This document shows positions 22,589-56,316 of a stretch of DNA of 64,000 nucleotides, piece after piece. This stretch comes from Halosolutus amylolyticus (GTDB lineage: Archaea > Halobacteriota > Halobacteria > Halobacteriales > Natrialbaceae). The stretch covers positions 372,001-436,000 of the forward strand of contig NZ_JALIQP010000002.1 in assembly GCF_023566055.1 (NCBI RefSeq), given 5' to 3'. The translations under genes were made by a program, and so were the position numbers. The notes under the pieces are model-generated. The model was given only the letters and a program-made list of their open reading frames with translations. It was not told the DNA's origin and searched no databases. Each line of letters begins with the position of its first letter. The first letter of the stretch is position 1.

Positions 22589-25500
22589 TTACGTCGCCCC
22601 GAGGCCGGAAATTCCGTCGAAGGGGTTGCCGAACGGATCACCGCCCGGTCCCTCACCCGGAGAGTCGTCCGGACCTCCGCCGGGAGGTTCGTCGGGCGGC
22701 CCATCGCCAGGTGTCTCGTCAGGCGGCCCATCGCCAGGTGTCTCGTCGGGCGGCCCGTCACCCGCGCCCGGTCCGTCGGCCCCGTCGCCGGGACCGGTCT
22801 CCCCATCAGGTTCATCGTTCGATCCGGGCGGTTCGTCTTCTCCCGGTTCGTCGGCCGGTCCTGTTTCTCCAGTTTCGGCGTCTGACGGCGCTATCTCGCC
22901 CGCAGTGGCAGTCTCAGCCGTAAGCACCTCCTCGTAATCGTAGCCGGTCATGTCGACCTCCCAGACGAGCCGTTCGTCGTCGGACTCGGGCGTCCACTCG
23001 ACGGTGAACGTGTTCTCTCCAGGCTGGAGTTCCTCGATCGGCTCCTGGACCGTCGTCCCCTCGACGAACTCGCTTCCGACGATCAGGGGCGCGTCGTTGG
23101 AGTTGTCGTAGCCGAAGGTCACGTCGATTCCGTCGTCGGTCGGCGTCGTCTCCACGACGCCGATCGCGGGCAGTTCCGGCCGGACCTCGAGGATGCACTG
23201 CTCGGCGTCCGGGTTCGGATAATCGATTTCACCGGGGGTCGCGTCGGGCGAGGCGAAGCCGGTGATCGCAGCACCGAAGTCGCCCGACGGAACCTCGACA
23301 GTTGCCCCGTCTTCCGTCTCGGTGACGGCGAACTCCTCGCCGGTCTCGTAGGTGAACGTCCCGTCGAACGGGGCCGACACGTCCTCGCCGACGGTAATCG
23401 CGTACTCGCCGATCGAGTTGCCGTCCGCGCCCGACTCGTAGAAGCCAGTTGTGACGATAATCTCGTCGCCCTCCTCGAACGTCCCGGTCACCTCGGCGTT
23501 CGAACAGTCGAGGTACTCGACGGCGAACTCCTCGGCGACGGTGTACTCGATCGTCTCGGTCGCGAGGGGGTCCGCCTCGGGATCGACAGCGGACACGACA
23601 GCGACCTCGAGCGTCGCATCGTCTTCGAGCGGCGGGTCGAGATCGATCGTCTCGTTCTGGATTGGGTCCCCGGGAGCGAACGGGCCCGTTTCGCCGATCT
23701 CCTGGCCGTCCTCGTCGGTCACCGTGAGCGCGTACTCGACCGAGGCGTTCGCCGCTTCGACCGTCAGGTTCGTGCCATCGCCCGTCTGATTCTCGACCGA
23801 CAGCGACGCCTCCGGCGCTTCGTCCTCGACCGTGTACTCGATCGTCTCGTTCGCGAGCGTCGCGTCGTCACCGTCCTCGCCGGCCGCGACGACGGCGACC
23901 TCGAGCGCCGCGTCGTCTTCGAGCGGTGGTTCCAGATCGAGGGATTCGTTTTCGATCGTTTCGTCCGGGCCAAACGCGTCGCTCTCGCCCAGTTGCTCAC
24001 CGTCCTCGTCGGTCACAGTGAGGACGTACTCAACCGAGGCGGTCGCCTCGTCCACGACGAGGCTCCCACCGTCGCCGTCCTGATCTTCGACGGTCAGCGA
24101 CGCCTCCGGCGCTTCGTCGTCTCCGTCGGCCTCGTCCGCGATCGCGTACTCGATCGTCTCGTTTGTCAGTTCCTCGCTGTCCGGGCCGACGAGCGCGACG
24201 TCGACGGTCGTGTTCTCCTCGATCGGCGGATCGAGGTCGAGGGACTCGTTCTCGATCGACTCGTTCGCGTCGAACGTCTCGCTCTCGACGGTCTCGCCAT
24301 CGTACGCGGCCGTGAGCACGTACTCGACCGAGGCGTTCGCTTCCGCGATCGTCAGGTTCGTGCCGTCGCCCGTCTGATTGGCGACCGACAGCGTCCCCTC
24401 GGGTTCGGCCGCCTCGTCTTCCGCATCGCCGTCTTCGACTTCTCCCTCGTCGCCGACCGCTACGACTGCCGTGTCGAGGACGGGCGACCCGCCCGGCGTC
24501 ACGTACGGCGGATCGTCCTCGCCACCGGTGTCGGCGTAGTCGAACGCCCCGTCGTCGTCCGTGTCGAGGTGGACAGCGGCGACCAGCGGCTGCTCCTCGG
24601 CGATCGCGTCGTCGAGTTGGATCTCGACGTTCTCGTGCGTGCCGGCCCCGAGGAACTCCGAGACGCCGAGGACGGCGTCGGGTTCGAGACCGACGTCGTC
24701 TCCCGCGTAGAGGGCCACGAAGCCGCCCTCCGAGAGGGAGACCTCGTCGATCACGACGCGATCGCCGGCGCTCTCCCTGTCCTCGAACGCGATCGACGCC
24801 TCGCCCTCGAGTTCGTCGACCTCCTCGAGTCGCTGTTCGGAGTCGGTCCTCGCGAACTGCCGGAGTTCGGCCTCCCCGTCGACCCCCTCGTCGACGGCGA
24901 AGGCGGCCGTGTCGGACGCCGTCTCCTGGCTCAGGATCTGTAGCTGTGTCACGCTGATCCGCTGGAACTGGACCACGCGGGCCGTCTCTTGGCTCGCCCC
25001 GCGGGCCGCGATCTGGATCTGCTCGATCGTCGCCTCCTGGTGCTGGACGAGCACGCCGCCCGCGGTTCCCTCGGCGAGTTTCTGTACCTGGACCACGTCG
25101 ACGATCTGTTTCTGGATCACGGCCCCTTCGCCGGCGCCGCGTGCCGCGGCCTGGATCTGCTCGACCTCGACGATCTGGCGCTGGACCGCCGACTCGATCG
25201 ACCCCTTCGCGGCCCCGAGGGCGGCGTACTGGATCTGCGTGATCGAAACCTCCTGTTGCTGGACGAGCACACCCTGCGAGGCCCCGTCGGCCGCCGCCTG
25301 GATCTGCTCGACCGTCGCCTCCTGGCTCTGGGTGATCGACCCCTTCGCCGCGCCGAAGGACGCCTCCTGGATCTGCGTGATGGAGATCCGCTGGACCTGC
25401 CGGACGGTGACCCGCTGGACCTGTTTCAGCGGCCCGCTCCCGGCACCGCGTGCCGCCGCCTGTGTCTGCTCGACCGAAACCGCCTGTTTCTGGACGATCG

Positions 25501-26491
25501 CGCCGGCCGCCGCGCCCGCGGCGGCCTTCTGGACCTGTTTGATCGTTACCCGCTGGCGCTGTTCGACGTCGACGTCTTGCTCCCCTTCGAGTGCCGCCCT
25601 CGTACTCCCGTCGAGCGCGCCCGCAGATGCGCCGGCCGCGGCGTTCTGGACGTGCTCCAGGGTGGTTCGCTGGCGCTGTTCGACCGTGATCTTCTGATAT
25701 TGCTCGAGCACGCCGTAGGCCGCCCCCTGGGCCGCCTCCTGGATCTTCGGCTGTTCCCGGACGTCTTTGTCGCCGGCCTCGCTCGCGGCCCCGGCGGCGG
25801 CACCGCGGGTCGCCACCTGGATCTGCTCGACGGTCGCGCGCTGTTTCTGGGCGATCGCGCCGTGTGTCGCGCCCCAGGTCGCGCTCTGCATCTGGCTCGC
25901 TTCGACCGTCTGGTACTGGGCCAGCGCGCCGTCGGTAGCCCCGCCGACCGCCGACTGGACCTGCTCGACTTCGACGCGCTGTTGCTGGATCAGCGTGCCG
26001 TGGACCGCCCCTTTCGTCGCCTCCTGGACCTGCTCGACGGAGGCCTCCTGGTGCTGGGCGACCGACTCGCGCGCCCCCTCGATCGCGGCGGCCTCCTGCT
26101 CCTGGGTCACCTCGACGCCCTGGGACTGGACGAGGTCGATCCCCTCCTGGACGCCGGTCTCGACGGCGTCTTCCTGTGCTTGCGAGAGCGACGCGACGGC
26201 GGGACCGCCGTCGCTCGCCGACGCGGTCGTCGGTTCCATCGAAACCAGTCGCGAGTTCGTCGCCCCGCGATCGAGCGGGGTGACCGCCGCACCGTCATCG
26301 GACCCACTGGCTGCCGCCCCGTGATCGAACTGCGGTTGGCCGTCAGCGGCCGAAACGACACCGTCCGTGTCGGCCCCCGCGTCACCGACGTTTCCGGTCC
26401 CACCACCGAGGAGCGGCAGAGCGAGCATGCTCGTGGCCATTCCGACGGTGACGAGGACCACCACCGCCGCCGTCGCGGACGATCGTCTCAT
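22589..26491 (-). CDS. giant secreted protein with Gln-rich 23-residue repeats
   Basis: A 1,300-residue exported protein. A signal segment is at residues 5-28. Residues about 125-515 hold roughly 15 copies of a 23-residue unit with consensus xVxVEQxQxAAxGAAxGxLxQ plus a further xQ, some with an extra 8-residue xVTVEQRQ-like strand. A DUF7282-like domain follows (about 575-665, VVIDEVSLSEGGFVALY). Three tandem beta-domains of about 95 residues come next (690-990), then a Cys-containing beta region and a Pro/Gly/Asp tail with PPDETPGDG repeats. Many N-X-S/T sequons occur in the three domains. GGAGG lies just before the ATG, so the message is leadered. A surface or cell-envelope structural role is inferred. 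Confidence 0.8.
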   Translation of the reverse strand: MRRSSATAAVVVLVTVGMATSMLALPLLGGGTGNVGDAGADTDGVVSAADGQPQFDHGAAASGSDDGAAVTPLDRGATNSRLVSMEPTTASASDGGPAVASLSQAQEDAVETGVQEGIDLVQSQGVEVTQEQEAAAIEGARESVAQHQEASVEQVQEATKGAVHGTLIQQQRVEVEQVQSAVGGATDGALAQYQTVEASQMQSATWGATHGAIAQKQRATVEQIQVATRGAAAGAASEAGDKDVREQPKIQEAAQGAAYGVLEQYQKITVEQRQRTTLEHVQNAAAGASAGALDGSTRAALEGEQDVDVEQRQRVTIKQVQKAAAGAAAGAIVQKQAVSVEQTQAAARGAGSGPLKQVQRVTVRQVQRISITQIQEASFGAAKGSITQSQEATVEQIQAAADGASQGVLVQQQEVSITQIQYAALGAAKGSIESAVQRQIVEVEQIQAAARGAGEGAVIQKQIVDVVQVQKLAEGTAGGVLVQHQEATIEQIQIAARGASQETARVVQFQRISVTQLQILSQETASDTAAFAVDEGVDGEAELRQFARTDSEQRLEEVDELEGEASIAFEDRESAGDRVVIDEVSLSEGGFVALYAGDDVGLEPDAVLGVSEFLGAGTHENVEIQLDDAIAEEQPLVAAVHLDTDDDGAFDYADTGGEDDPPYVTPGGSPVLDTAVVAVGDEGEVEDGDAEDEAAEPEGTLSVANQTGDGTNLTIAEANASVEYVLTAAYDGETVESETFDANESIENESLDLDPPIEENTTVDVALVGPDSEELTNETIEYAIADEADGDDEAPEASLTVEDQDGDGGSLVVDEATASVEYVLTVTDEDGEQLGESDAFGPDETIENESLDLEPPLEDDAALEVAVVAAGEDGDDATLANETIEYTVEDEAPEASLSVENQTGDGTNLTVEAANASVEYALTVTDEDGQEIGETGPFAPGDPIQNETIDLDPPLEDDATLEVAVVSAVDPEADPLATETIEYTVAEEFAVEYLDCSNAEVTGTFEEGDEIIVTTGFYESGADGNSIGEYAITVGEDVSAPFDGTFTYETGEEFAVTETEDGATVEVPSGDFGAAITGFASPDATPGEIDYPNPDAEQCILEVRPELPAIGVVETTPTDDGIDVTFGYDNSNDAPLIVGSEFVEGTTVQEPIEELQPGENTFTVEWTPESDDERLVWEVDMTGYDYEEVLTAETATAGEIAPSDAETGETGPADEPGEDEPPGSNDEPDGETGPGDGADGPGAGDGPPDETPGDGPPDETPGDGPPDEPPGGGPDDSPGEGPGGDPFGNPFDGISGLGAT
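22680..22760. repeat. short direct repeats coding the Pro-rich tail
   Basis: About 27 bases containing GGCGGCCCATCGCCAGGTG are repeated in tandem and encode the PPDETPGDG units of the large secreted protein. Copy number here is likely to vary among strains. Confidence 0.6.
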
Positions 26492-26963
26492 ACATCTCGC
26501 CTCCGGGTCGCGGTCTGGACCCCGATCGAGGTCGTGGAACCGACCCCGATCCGCGTCGAACCCGTCCCTTCGCCCCGGGCCGCAGTCCCGGTCCGCGATC
26601 GAAACGTCGATCCTGTCCACCGATCTCCCCCACGCCGTACCGCCGTACTACTCGAACCCATGGCTCCCTCACGAGGGATCGAACGAGCGCATAAGGACGC
26701 CGTCCGTTTCGGTTGCATCGCGGACACAATCGGACGTTACGGTGTGAAACGCATTCCTCCGACCGAGAAAGTCCCGTCCGAAGAGGGGGCAGTCACGTCG
26801 CGCGACGCTACCGGACAGTCACAGGAGCCGACAGGTAGCCCGGTGTTTCGCGCCGATCGCGGCTCGTGCACGGACCCGTTCGAACGCGGGAGCGCGACGC
26901 CCGCTACCGAGACCGGTGTCGTAAACCGAAGTATTGATCCGGGTATACGAACGATCCGGCGGT
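26492..26963. other. 472-base divergent intergenic region
   Basis: No gene is seen. On the minus side, GGAGG about 8 bases before the ATG at 26491 is a clear ribosome binding site, and CCTTATGC near 26690 may be the promoter, implying a leader of about 170 bases for the large secreted protein. On the plus side, the biotin transporter operon begins at 26964 with only a weak AT-rich box (GTATTGA) upstream. Confidence 0.45.
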
Positions 26964-27548
26964 ATGGAAACGGAACAGTCCGACGTCGATCTCGTGGGAG
27001 GCGAAACCGTCAGAGCCGTCGCTCGAGCCGCGTTACTGGCGGCGTTGATGGGCGCGGCCGCCATCGTCACGATCCCGTACCCGCTGTCGCCGGCACCGGT
27101 CACGCTCCAGGTACTCGTGGTCTTTCTCGCCGGCCTCTACCTCGGGCCGCTGTGGGGAACGTTCTCGATCGGCCTCTACCTCGCCGCCGGCGCGATGGGT
27201 GCGCCGGTGTTCTCCGGTGCGACCGGCGGCCCCGGCGTCCTCCTGTCGGAGCCGACCGCCGGGTTCCTCTGGGCGTTCCCGATCGGCGCCCTGGTGATCG
27301 GCCTTCTCGTCCACCGGGAAGTCTCACCACGAGACCCTGCCGACGTCCCCGTCCCGCTCGTGGTCGGGAGCCTGCTCGCCGGACTCCTCGTCATCTACGC
27401 TGGCGGCGTCGGCTGGTTCGCCTGGATCGCCTCGACGAGTCTCCCGGAGGCCGCGGCCGCGGTCGCGGTGCCGTTCGTGCCGGCCGACCTCCTCAAACTC
27501 GCCGCCGCGCTCGCGATCGTTCGGAGCGGTCGACTCGATCCGGTATGA
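26964..27548 (+). CDS. bioY: biotin ECF transporter S component BioY
   Basis: A 194-residue integral membrane protein with six spans. PYPLSPAPVTLQVLVVFLAG and GAPVFSGATGGPGVLLSEPT are the BioY signature, binding biotin in the membrane. The ATG at 26964 is preferred to an upstream in-frame start because the family motif begins soon after. It is followed at 22 bases by the ATPase and then by the T component, so this is a dedicated three-part biotin importer. Confidence 0.95.
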   Translation: METEQSDVDLVGGETVRAVARAALLAALMGAAAIVTIPYPLSPAPVTLQVLVVFLAGLYLGPLWGTFSIGLYLAAGAMGAPVFSGATGGPGVLLSEPTAGFLWAFPIGALVIGLLVHREVSPRDPADVPVPLVVGSLLAGLLVIYAGGVGWFAWIASTSLPEAAAAVAVPFVPADLLKLAAALAIVRSGRLDPV

Positions 27549-27570
27549 GCGGGCGGCGAGGGATCGGCGG

Positions 27571-28290
27571 ATGATCGAGTTCGACGCCGTCTCGTTCGGG
27601 TTCGAGGACGTCCCCGTCCTCGATGACGTCTCCCTGACGATCGACGACGGCGAATTCGTCGTGCTCGCGGGCGCGAACGGGAGCGGGAAGACCACCCTGT
27701 GCCGTCACTGTAACGGCCTCCTCGAACCCGATTCGGGAACGGTCCGCGTCGACGGCACGCCCGTCCGGGACGACCTGGTGGGTGCTCGCTCGACCGTCGG
27801 GATGGTCTTCCAGCACCCGCGCGACCAGTTCGTCGCGGCGACCGTCGGCTCCGACGTCGCCTTCGGCCCCGAGAACCTCGGCCTCCCGCGCGCGGAGATC
27901 GATCGCCGCGTCGAGTCGGCGCTCGCCGCCGTCAACATGACCGGCCGCGAGACCGATCTGATCGACGCCCTCTCGGGCGGCGAGCAGTCCCGCGTGGCCA
28001 TCGCGGGCGCGCTCGCGATGGACCCGTCCCACCTCGTCCTCGACGAACCGTTCACCGGGCTCGACGACCCCGCACGCCGGTCCGTCCTCGATCGGCTCGC
28101 GTCGCTCTCGAACGACGGGACGGGCGTCGTCCTCGCGACCCACGACCTCCGCGACGTGATCCCGCTGGCCGATCGCGTGATCGCCATGCGGGACGGCCGC
28201 GTCGTCGTCGACGGGACGTCCCCCGGCGCGCTCGACGAACTCGCCGACCTCCCGGTACGGGTGCCACGCTCGCGACGACCCCACGAGTAA
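27571..28290 (+). CDS. bioM: biotin ECF transporter ATPase BioM
   Basis: A 239-residue energy-coupling-factor ATPase. Walker A is GANGSGKTT (residues 34-42), the Q-loop lies in GMVFQHPRDQFVAATVGSDV with the ECF-typical family sequence, the ABC signature is LSGGEQSRVAIAGAL and Walker B is LVLDEPFTGLD. It powers BioY-BioN uptake. Only three bases separate its stop from the next start. Confidence 0.94.
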   Translation: MIEFDAVSFGFEDVPVLDDVSLTIDDGEFVVLAGANGSGKTTLCRHCNGLLEPDSGTVRVDGTPVRDDLVGARSTVGMVFQHPRDQFVAATVGSDVAFGPENLGLPRAEIDRRVESALAAVNMTGRETDLIDALSGGEQSRVAIAGALAMDPSHLVLDEPFTGLDDPARRSVLDRLASLSNDGTGVVLATHDLRDVIPLADRVIAMRDGRVVVDGTSPGALDELADLPVRVPRSRRPHE

Positions 28291-55634: not shown

Positions 55635-56084
55635 GTGGTCTACGTCACGCGGGCCCTCGTCGACGTGTTGCTCGACCTGGCCAGCGACGCCGATCCCGAT
55701 CGGGTGACGACCGGCGTCTCCGTGACGCCCGCCGGCGAACTCGAGGGCGAGGACGCAGTCGCGATTCCCGACGAGACGCCGGTATTCACCGACTTCTACC
55801 TGCCCGACCCCGGCAATTCCGTCAACGCCGTCTTCGGCGTCGACCTCACGACCCCCGCCCGACAGGCCCAGGGGCAGTTCGTCTCCCACCCGCTCCGGGA
55901 ACTCGAAGTGACGAAACGGGACGACCTCGCGGAAGTGATCTTTGTCGCCGTCCCGCCCTGGGAGATCGGCAAACGATCGTTCGCCGCGTTCGATCGATCC
56001 GGCGACCGTCACCCCCTCGAGATCATCGAGGCCACGGCGCCGGACCAGTCGCTGTCCGACGTCGAGTGGAAAACGGGACCGTGA
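55635..56084 (+). CDS. conserved haloarchaeal protein of unknown function
   Basis: A 149-residue acidic soluble protein (MVYVTRALVDVLLDLASDAD..., GNSVNAVFGVDLTTPARQAQ). No named domain is recognised. A GTG at 55635 is chosen over one 12 bases earlier: a weak CCTAACT box precedes it at about 27 bases. The last 18 codons lie in a 93-bp tandem duplication; the first copy keeps the stop. Confidence 0.72.
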   Translation: MVYVTRALVDVLLDLASDADPDRVTTGVSVTPAGELEGEDAVAIPDETPVFTDFYLPDPGNSVNAVFGVDLTTPARQAQGQFVSHPLRELEVTKRDDLAEVIFVAVPPWEIGKRSFAAFDRSGDRHPLEIIEATAPDQSLSDVEWKTGP

Positions 56085-56213
56085 TACCGTCGGTCTCGAA
56101 ACGACCTCCGCCCGATGCTGGAGGCCACGGCGCCGGACCAGTCGCTGTCCGACGTCGAGTGGAAAACGGGACCGTGATACCGTCGGTCTCGAAACGACCT
56201 CCGCCCGATGCTG
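56028..56213. repeat. perfect 93-bp tandem duplication
   Basis: Bases 56028-56120 and 56121-56213 are identical as far as I can read. The unit spans the last 18 codons of the preceding gene, its TGA and about 36 downstream bases, so the second copy is a non-coding echo of the gene end. Confidence 0.9.
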
Positions 56214-56316
56214 GATCGCTAGACGCTCAAAAGCGTTCGGCCGACGGTAACGGGCATCCCGCTCCGCCGCGACGGAGATCCGCGGCCGGCGATCGGTCGA
56301 CGACGAAGCCCGACCC

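Follow-up and report, generated by a model that had tools for sequence, protein, structure and literature searches.

A conserved glutamine-rich 23-residue repeat array in a large, predicted secreted protein of the Natrialbaceae

Results and Discussion

A haloarchaeal gene of the family Natrialbaceae was found to encode a protein of 1,300 aa that contains a 431-residue array of glutamine-rich repeats. Most of the family retains this large protein of surface type, and within it the array evolves more slowly than any other part. The repeat is strongly constrained, occupies a fixed locus, is cleanly absent from some species and is joined to varied surface modules in more distant relatives. The array is proposed, with a probability of about 0.5, to fold as an ordered solenoid rod, and the protein to be secreted (or signal-anchored) and to belong to the cell surface or matrix.

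Layout of the repeat protein

The gene is located on the minus strand of the window, i.e., the whole stretch of 64,000 nucleotides that was analysed, with an ATG at 26491 and an open frame to the stop codon. Its features are listed below, residue numbers being those of the repeat protein (P0001).

22589..26491, minus strand: whole gene, encoding the 1,300-aa repeat protein, predicted secreted (open frame; 16 contigs with flanking sequence place orthologs at this locus)
26402..26491, minus strand: predicted N-terminal signal sequence MRRSSATAAVVVLVTVGMATSMLALPLLGG (hydrophobic N-terminus kept in the complete family orthologs examined, with the family consensus ...TSVLALPLLGGG)
24905..26197, minus strand: repeat array at residues 100-530, built on approximately 15 cores of the 8+15 unit (parsing, shuffles, conservation)
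26048..26197, minus strand: N-terminal cap, glycine-poor helix-like first units EDAVETGVQEGIDLVQSQ and GVEVTQEQEAAAIEGARESVAQHQ (AlphaFold helices with pLDDT of about 75-90; register with later units)
25979..26047, minus strand: example of a canonical unit, EASVEQVQEATKGAVHGTLIQQQ, residues 150-172 (parsing; profile of 617 distinct units)
25367..25414, minus strand: extra tandem 8-mers RVTVRQVQ RISITQIQ, residues 361-376 (parsing; 8-mer doublets in most homologs)
24461..24799, minus strand: DUF7282 domain, Ig-like beta-sandwich, residues 566-678 (Pfam PF23951, E 3e-37; AlphaFold pLDDT of about 60-90)
23495..24394, minus strand: acidic sequon-rich beta-domains, residues 701-1000 (sequence)
23105..23494, minus strand: C-terminal domain with two cysteines, residues 1001-1130 (common to a repeat-less paralog elsewhere in the genome)
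22592..23104, minus strand: rest of the C-terminal domain and Pro/Gly-rich tail (sequence)

Secretion of the protein is suggested by the predicted signal sequence, while a C-terminal membrane segment is absent from it and was found in none of the 16 complete family orthologs checked. An earlier note on this DNA had described a DUF7282-like domain, sequon-rich domains and a Pro-rich tail, all of which were recovered: PF23951, the only domain matched, scored 127.6 bits against a cut-off of 27; the 13 N-x-S/T sequons of the whole protein all fall within residues 706-947; and proline makes up 12% of the final 300 residues. A 27-bp tandem DNA repeat at window positions 22689-22756 encodes the PPDETPGDG repeats of this tail. 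The best structural matches returned by VIA-align, which covered the DUF7282 part of AlphaFold model 1 only, were carbohydrate-binding or Ig-like modules, with Z scores of 8 or below.

The same genome encodes a paralog without the Gln-rich array (G000:C2:239197-240156), which has the C-terminal domains in common with the repeat protein (45% identity over 239485-240156). Two shorter proteins other than the repeat protein match the DUF7282 region in this genome. An 861-aa open frame on the plus strand (window 24989-27574), antisense to the repeat-protein gene, is most likely a by-product of high GC content and not a gene. Elsewhere in the window, at 56028-56215, a tandem repeat scan identified a perfect 93-bp tandem duplication, with two copies and 100% matches.

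Repeat unit and periodicity

The unit is composed of an 8-mer, xVxVEQxQ, followed by a 15-mer, xAAxGAAxGALxQxQ. When split at Q-x-Q, the array yields 17 8-mers, nine exact 15-mers, and variants of 16-18, 39 and 41 residues; the exact 8+15 = 23 arrangement is present in nine units, several other units measure 24-26 residues, and the 8-mers are sometimes doubled. The earlier note had placed about 15 copies of a unit of near-constant length, with additional eight-residue elements, at 24940-26110. The number agrees with the 15 AAxGAAxG-type Gly/Ala cores counted by eye, the length with the modal unit of 23 residues, and the additional elements with the tandem 8-mers noted above, whereas the span, although correct as to location and unit, proved slightly too short on both sides.

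The periodicity far exceeds that of 2,000 permutations of the array's own residues. The motif [VIA]x[VIAL]xQxQ occurs 20 times in the array (shuffled mean 1.8, maximum 7) and Q-x7-Q-x14-Q 21 times (shuffled mean 2.1, maximum 6), while the Gln autocorrelation at lag 23 is 0.45 against a shuffle maximum of 0.17. Furthermore, 617 distinct 23-mers were combined into a profile, in which conservation alternates with a period of 2 at positions 17-23 and 1-8 and follows a period near 3.6 at positions 9-23. The variable positions, read as outward, are 1, 9, 12, 16, 20 and 22, and the conserved Gln, Gly and Ala of the unit look mostly internal.

Evolutionary constraint

The dN/dS of the array ranges from 0.10 to 0.30, compared to about 0.25-0.73 for the rest of the protein, and nearly all comparisons put it below the remaining regions of the gene that were tested. 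Between species the array is 67-97% identical, while identities are mostly 29-86% for the N-terminus, DUF7282, the sequon domains and the tail; one C-terminal stretch is likewise highly identical in the closest relative. The alignment of the array from 18 orthologs is near gap-free, with Q-x-Q and Gly invariant, and these residues are also kept in many columns across families. Orthologous repeats are approximately 65-80% alike, whereas the two halves of a single array are only about 40% alike, indicating that the repeats are old, individually fixed and unhomogenised.

The Ala/Gln/Gly-rich composition of the array, together with low AlphaFold confidence in its middle, would be expected of a low-complexity disordered spacer. 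Such a spacer is extremely improbable given the low dN/dS, the near gap-free alignment and the site-specific conservation, repeat by repeat, and disorder was rejected on conservation and dN/dS. The same constraint could instead reflect ligand binding, in which a regular, flat face of repeated side chains would bind a regular target such as polysaccharide, mineral or another cell, the protein acting as an adhesin and the rod shape being secondary. This agrees with the weak resemblance of the attached module to carbohydrate-binding and Ig-like folds (Z 8 or below) and with the presence of NosD/beta-helix among the partner modules of homologs. However, the conserved Gln, Gly and Ala mostly look internal and variation is concentrated at the outward positions, whereas a conserved binding face would show the reverse; such a face is therefore less likely and the ligand-binding array quite improbable.

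Distribution and genomic context

The array was located in 104 of 125 Natrialbaceae genomes (26 of 29 genera), among them the close relatives Natronorubrum, Haloterrigena, Natrialba, Natrinema, Natronococcus and others, and in most family carriers it is co-linear and 59-97% identical over its full length. Order-wide, 36 of the 95 sampled genera gave a match. In a sample of 295 genomes from the phylum, 13 matched at E below 1e-10, all of the same order, and none of the sampled genomes outside Halobacteria gave an array match. Arrays in other families of the order are more divergent and are joined to different surface modules: in distant homologs the array lies near the N-terminus behind a signal sequence, while the remainder varies and includes NosD/beta-helix, several DUF7282 copies, TSP3 repeats with a CAP domain, and long Thr/Pro or acidic tails. 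In some distant homologs the C-terminus is a hydrophobic stretch with basic residues behind it, read as a membrane segment, whereas the 16 complete Natrialbaceae proteins have no such ending. One distant homolog (L079), a frame of 2,292 aa, combines the array with TSP3 repeats and a CAP domain, and has such a hydrophobic and basic end.

Every one of the 16 family contigs that extend to the upstream side has a BioY-CbiO-EcfT operon next to the repeat gene, and a 96-aa gene then follows in 15 of these, the sixteenth contig ending inside the repeat gene; a seventeenth, short contig covers the 96-aa side only. These neighbours are constant yet look functionally unrelated to the repeat gene, and the operon was therefore discarded as a clue to function. 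Four array-less relatives (L201-L204) possess clean empty sites, in which the 96-aa gene adjoins BioY and CbiO and the repeat gene is absent altogether; together with its wide presence, this indicates that the gene is common but dispensable. A single plasmid record in PLSDB, from Halobaculum marinum, carries a homolog, annotated as 'hypothetical protein'. Phage records gave no array match and viral contigs no relative, and a mobile or viral origin of the gene was rejected.

Searches against known families

The earlier view that the repeat belongs to no described family is in line with searches of Pfam, which matched DUF7282 only and left the array uncovered, of NCBIfam, which gave no match to the repeat protein, and of PHROGs, which returned chance-level matches only. 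Similarly, no PDB sequence matched the array or a profile of 17 homologous arrays. In two of these 17 distant arrays Pfam reported a weak glycine-zipper match (PF13441, best E 0.0053), which is not seen in the window protein, and leucine-rich repeat families are not among the Pfam matches of the protein or the 17 arrays at E up to 1. The curlin repeat profile (PF07012, Curlin_rpt), which detected its E. coli control, matched neither the repeat protein nor the 17 arrays, nor anything in the genome of the window. The literature searched contained no paper on DUF7282 or on haloarchaeal repeats rich in Gln. The repeat is nevertheless found across the order, although Pfam, NCBIfam and PHROGs lack a profile for it and the PDB gave no relative by sequence.

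Fold of the array

Structure prediction modelled DUF7282 as a beta-sandwich of mostly good confidence, but for the array gave helices in the N-terminal units, a low-confidence middle and no confident beta-solenoid. In a first AlphaFold job (residues 87-690, 18 sequences) the cap and units 1-4 form helices of 16-20 residues, continuous over unit positions 5-21, with pLDDT of about 80-85 falling below 50 across the N-terminal units and then to approximately 20, and helices are also present at 490-536. A second job (residues 369-530, 35 rows, including the other array half as repeat-shifted extra rows) returned strands that start near position 17 of one unit and run on to position 10 of the following one, at a pLDDT of 36 with all residues below 50. 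The two jobs disagree and neither is usable for the array middle, and the fold was therefore read from the sequences themselves.

Covariation among 94 orthologs, judged against equivalent pairs of positions taken from distant units, is dominated by i,i+2 at positions 1-8 and by i,i+4 at positions 9-18 and 17-23, with a weak parallel, near-in-register signal between neighbouring units; in absolute terms the signal is weak (Neff 62), control for phylogeny is incomplete, and some point estimates fall outside the bootstrap intervals. Precision-matrix coupling was noisy and was left out of the fold reading, and salt-bridge pair statistics were uninformative. On this pattern, positions 1-8 are best read as extended and positions 9-20 as helix-like, which corresponds to a mixed alpha/beta solenoid and agrees with the two modules, 8-mer and 15-mer, that are seen by eye. 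Overall, a mixed alpha/beta or beta solenoid is considered rather likely, although a pure beta stack is unlikely, because the central 15-mer appears helix-like in covariation.

The helices of the first job are also those expected of an all-alpha rod, in which each 23-mer would be one helix (approximately 4-21) with a short loop, and the helices would pack by a Gly/Ala zipper along the line Q6-A10-G13/A14-G17-Q21, whose symmetry suits antiparallel neighbours. The caps are plainly helix-like, variable positions 5, 9, 12, 16 and 20 form one covarying helical stripe, and position 3 is Ser, Thr, Asn or Asp in 78% of units, like helix N-caps. In contrast, i,i+2 coupling dominates at positions 1-8, positions 2, 4 and 7 are rich in V, I and T, and helix confidence collapses past unit 4; an all-alpha rod is accordingly viewed as somewhat unlikely.

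The second job bears on another alternative, a curli-like functional amyloid, in which a beta-solenoid subunit would polymerise end to end into extracellular cross-beta fibres; its strands, albeit at no confidence, and the alternating V-x-V-x-Q pattern would suit such a subunit. The earlier note had likened the unit in size, though not in sequence, to the 22-residue curli repeat. Both statements hold: the modal 23 residues compare with a curlin average of 23 +/- 5 aa (PMC10192328), whereas N-x5-Q does not occur in the array, where Asn accounts for one of 431 residues, and QX10Q is depleted (1 against a shuffled mean of 12.4). Haloferax biofilms do stain with amyloid dyes (PMC4180959), but the responsible protein is not established and the staining is unlinked to the array family. 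With these motifs missing and PF07012 unmatched, membership of the curlin family was rejected and the array should not be filed as curlin. Moreover, positions 9-18 are helix-like, the array belongs to a protein of 1,300 aa that carries putative glycosylation sites, whereas curlin subunits are small, and AlphaFold models of curlin homologs reach a mean pLDDT of 83 (PMC10192328) where none of comparable confidence was obtained as a beta-solenoid here. A curli-like amyloid is thus very unlikely, and, of the solenoid or amyloid-like stack first suggested, a solenoid of some kind survives as the best reading while the amyloid part is not supported.

Proposed architecture and role

As a solenoid rod, the 431 residues of the array would form one ordered, non-globular structure, N-terminal in the protein, in which each 23-residue turn would consist of the extended 8-mer followed by the short helix-like 15-mer. 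Gly and Ala would permit very tight packing of the turns, the invariant Q-x-Q pairs may form side-chain ladders locking neighbouring turns, and the ends would be capped by the glycine-poor helical units. Such a rod, probably rigid and on or around the cell, would present the Ig-like domains, which are acidic and rich in sequons, together with the Pro-rich tail. Counted against this reading are the two AlphaFold jobs, neither of which supports it, the weakness of the covariation, and the species without the gene.

A secreted, slow-evolving rod bearing acidic, probably glycosylated Ig-like domains, with varied surface modules in relatives, would fit a structural stalk, matrix or adhesion component; a scaffold or adhesion role is inferred, as are the alpha/beta-solenoid fold and the Gln ladders. 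Of the extracellular fibre, adhesin or sheath part envisaged earlier, a surface or matrix role is plausible, while a fibre of stacked amyloid type is not supported. It is unlikely, if conceivable, that the array represents a new class of mixed alpha/beta solenoid, found widely in Halobacteria, in which Gln ladders are buried and helices pack through Gly/Ala alone, and which can self-assemble in saturated brine to give extracellular rods or fibres. The array protein offers a concrete candidate for an extracellular scaffold in archaea, and its repeat could be useful as a building block that stays stable in saturated salt.

Comparison with known systems

Curlin (CsgA, PF07012) is secreted, as the repeat protein is predicted to be, and like the array has a unit of approximately 23 residues in which small or hydrophobic residues alternate with Gln. 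The array differs in lacking Asn at the motif starts, QX10Q and XGXX arcs, and in having a Gly/Ala helix-like segment within a large multidomain, archaeal protein. With the DUF7282 secreted haloarchaeal proteins (PF23951) the repeat protein has a clear DUF7282 domain in common, although this domain accounts for 113 of 1,300 residues and the repeat lies outside it.

Alpha/beta solenoids such as leucine-rich repeats combine a strand and a helix-like segment in a unit of 20-29 residues. The proposed layout of the array unit is of the same type, but the array has no leucine-rich repeat consensus or Pfam match, Gln replaces Asn/Leu, and the helix face consists of Gly/Ala only. Glycine-zipper repeats (PF13441) resemble the array in their GxxxG/Ala-rich stripe; the array differs in its alternating Q-x-Q, to our knowledge not a feature of that family, and in the window protein having no PF13441 match. 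The best reading of these sequence comparisons is that the array represents an undescribed repeat family of a known general kind.
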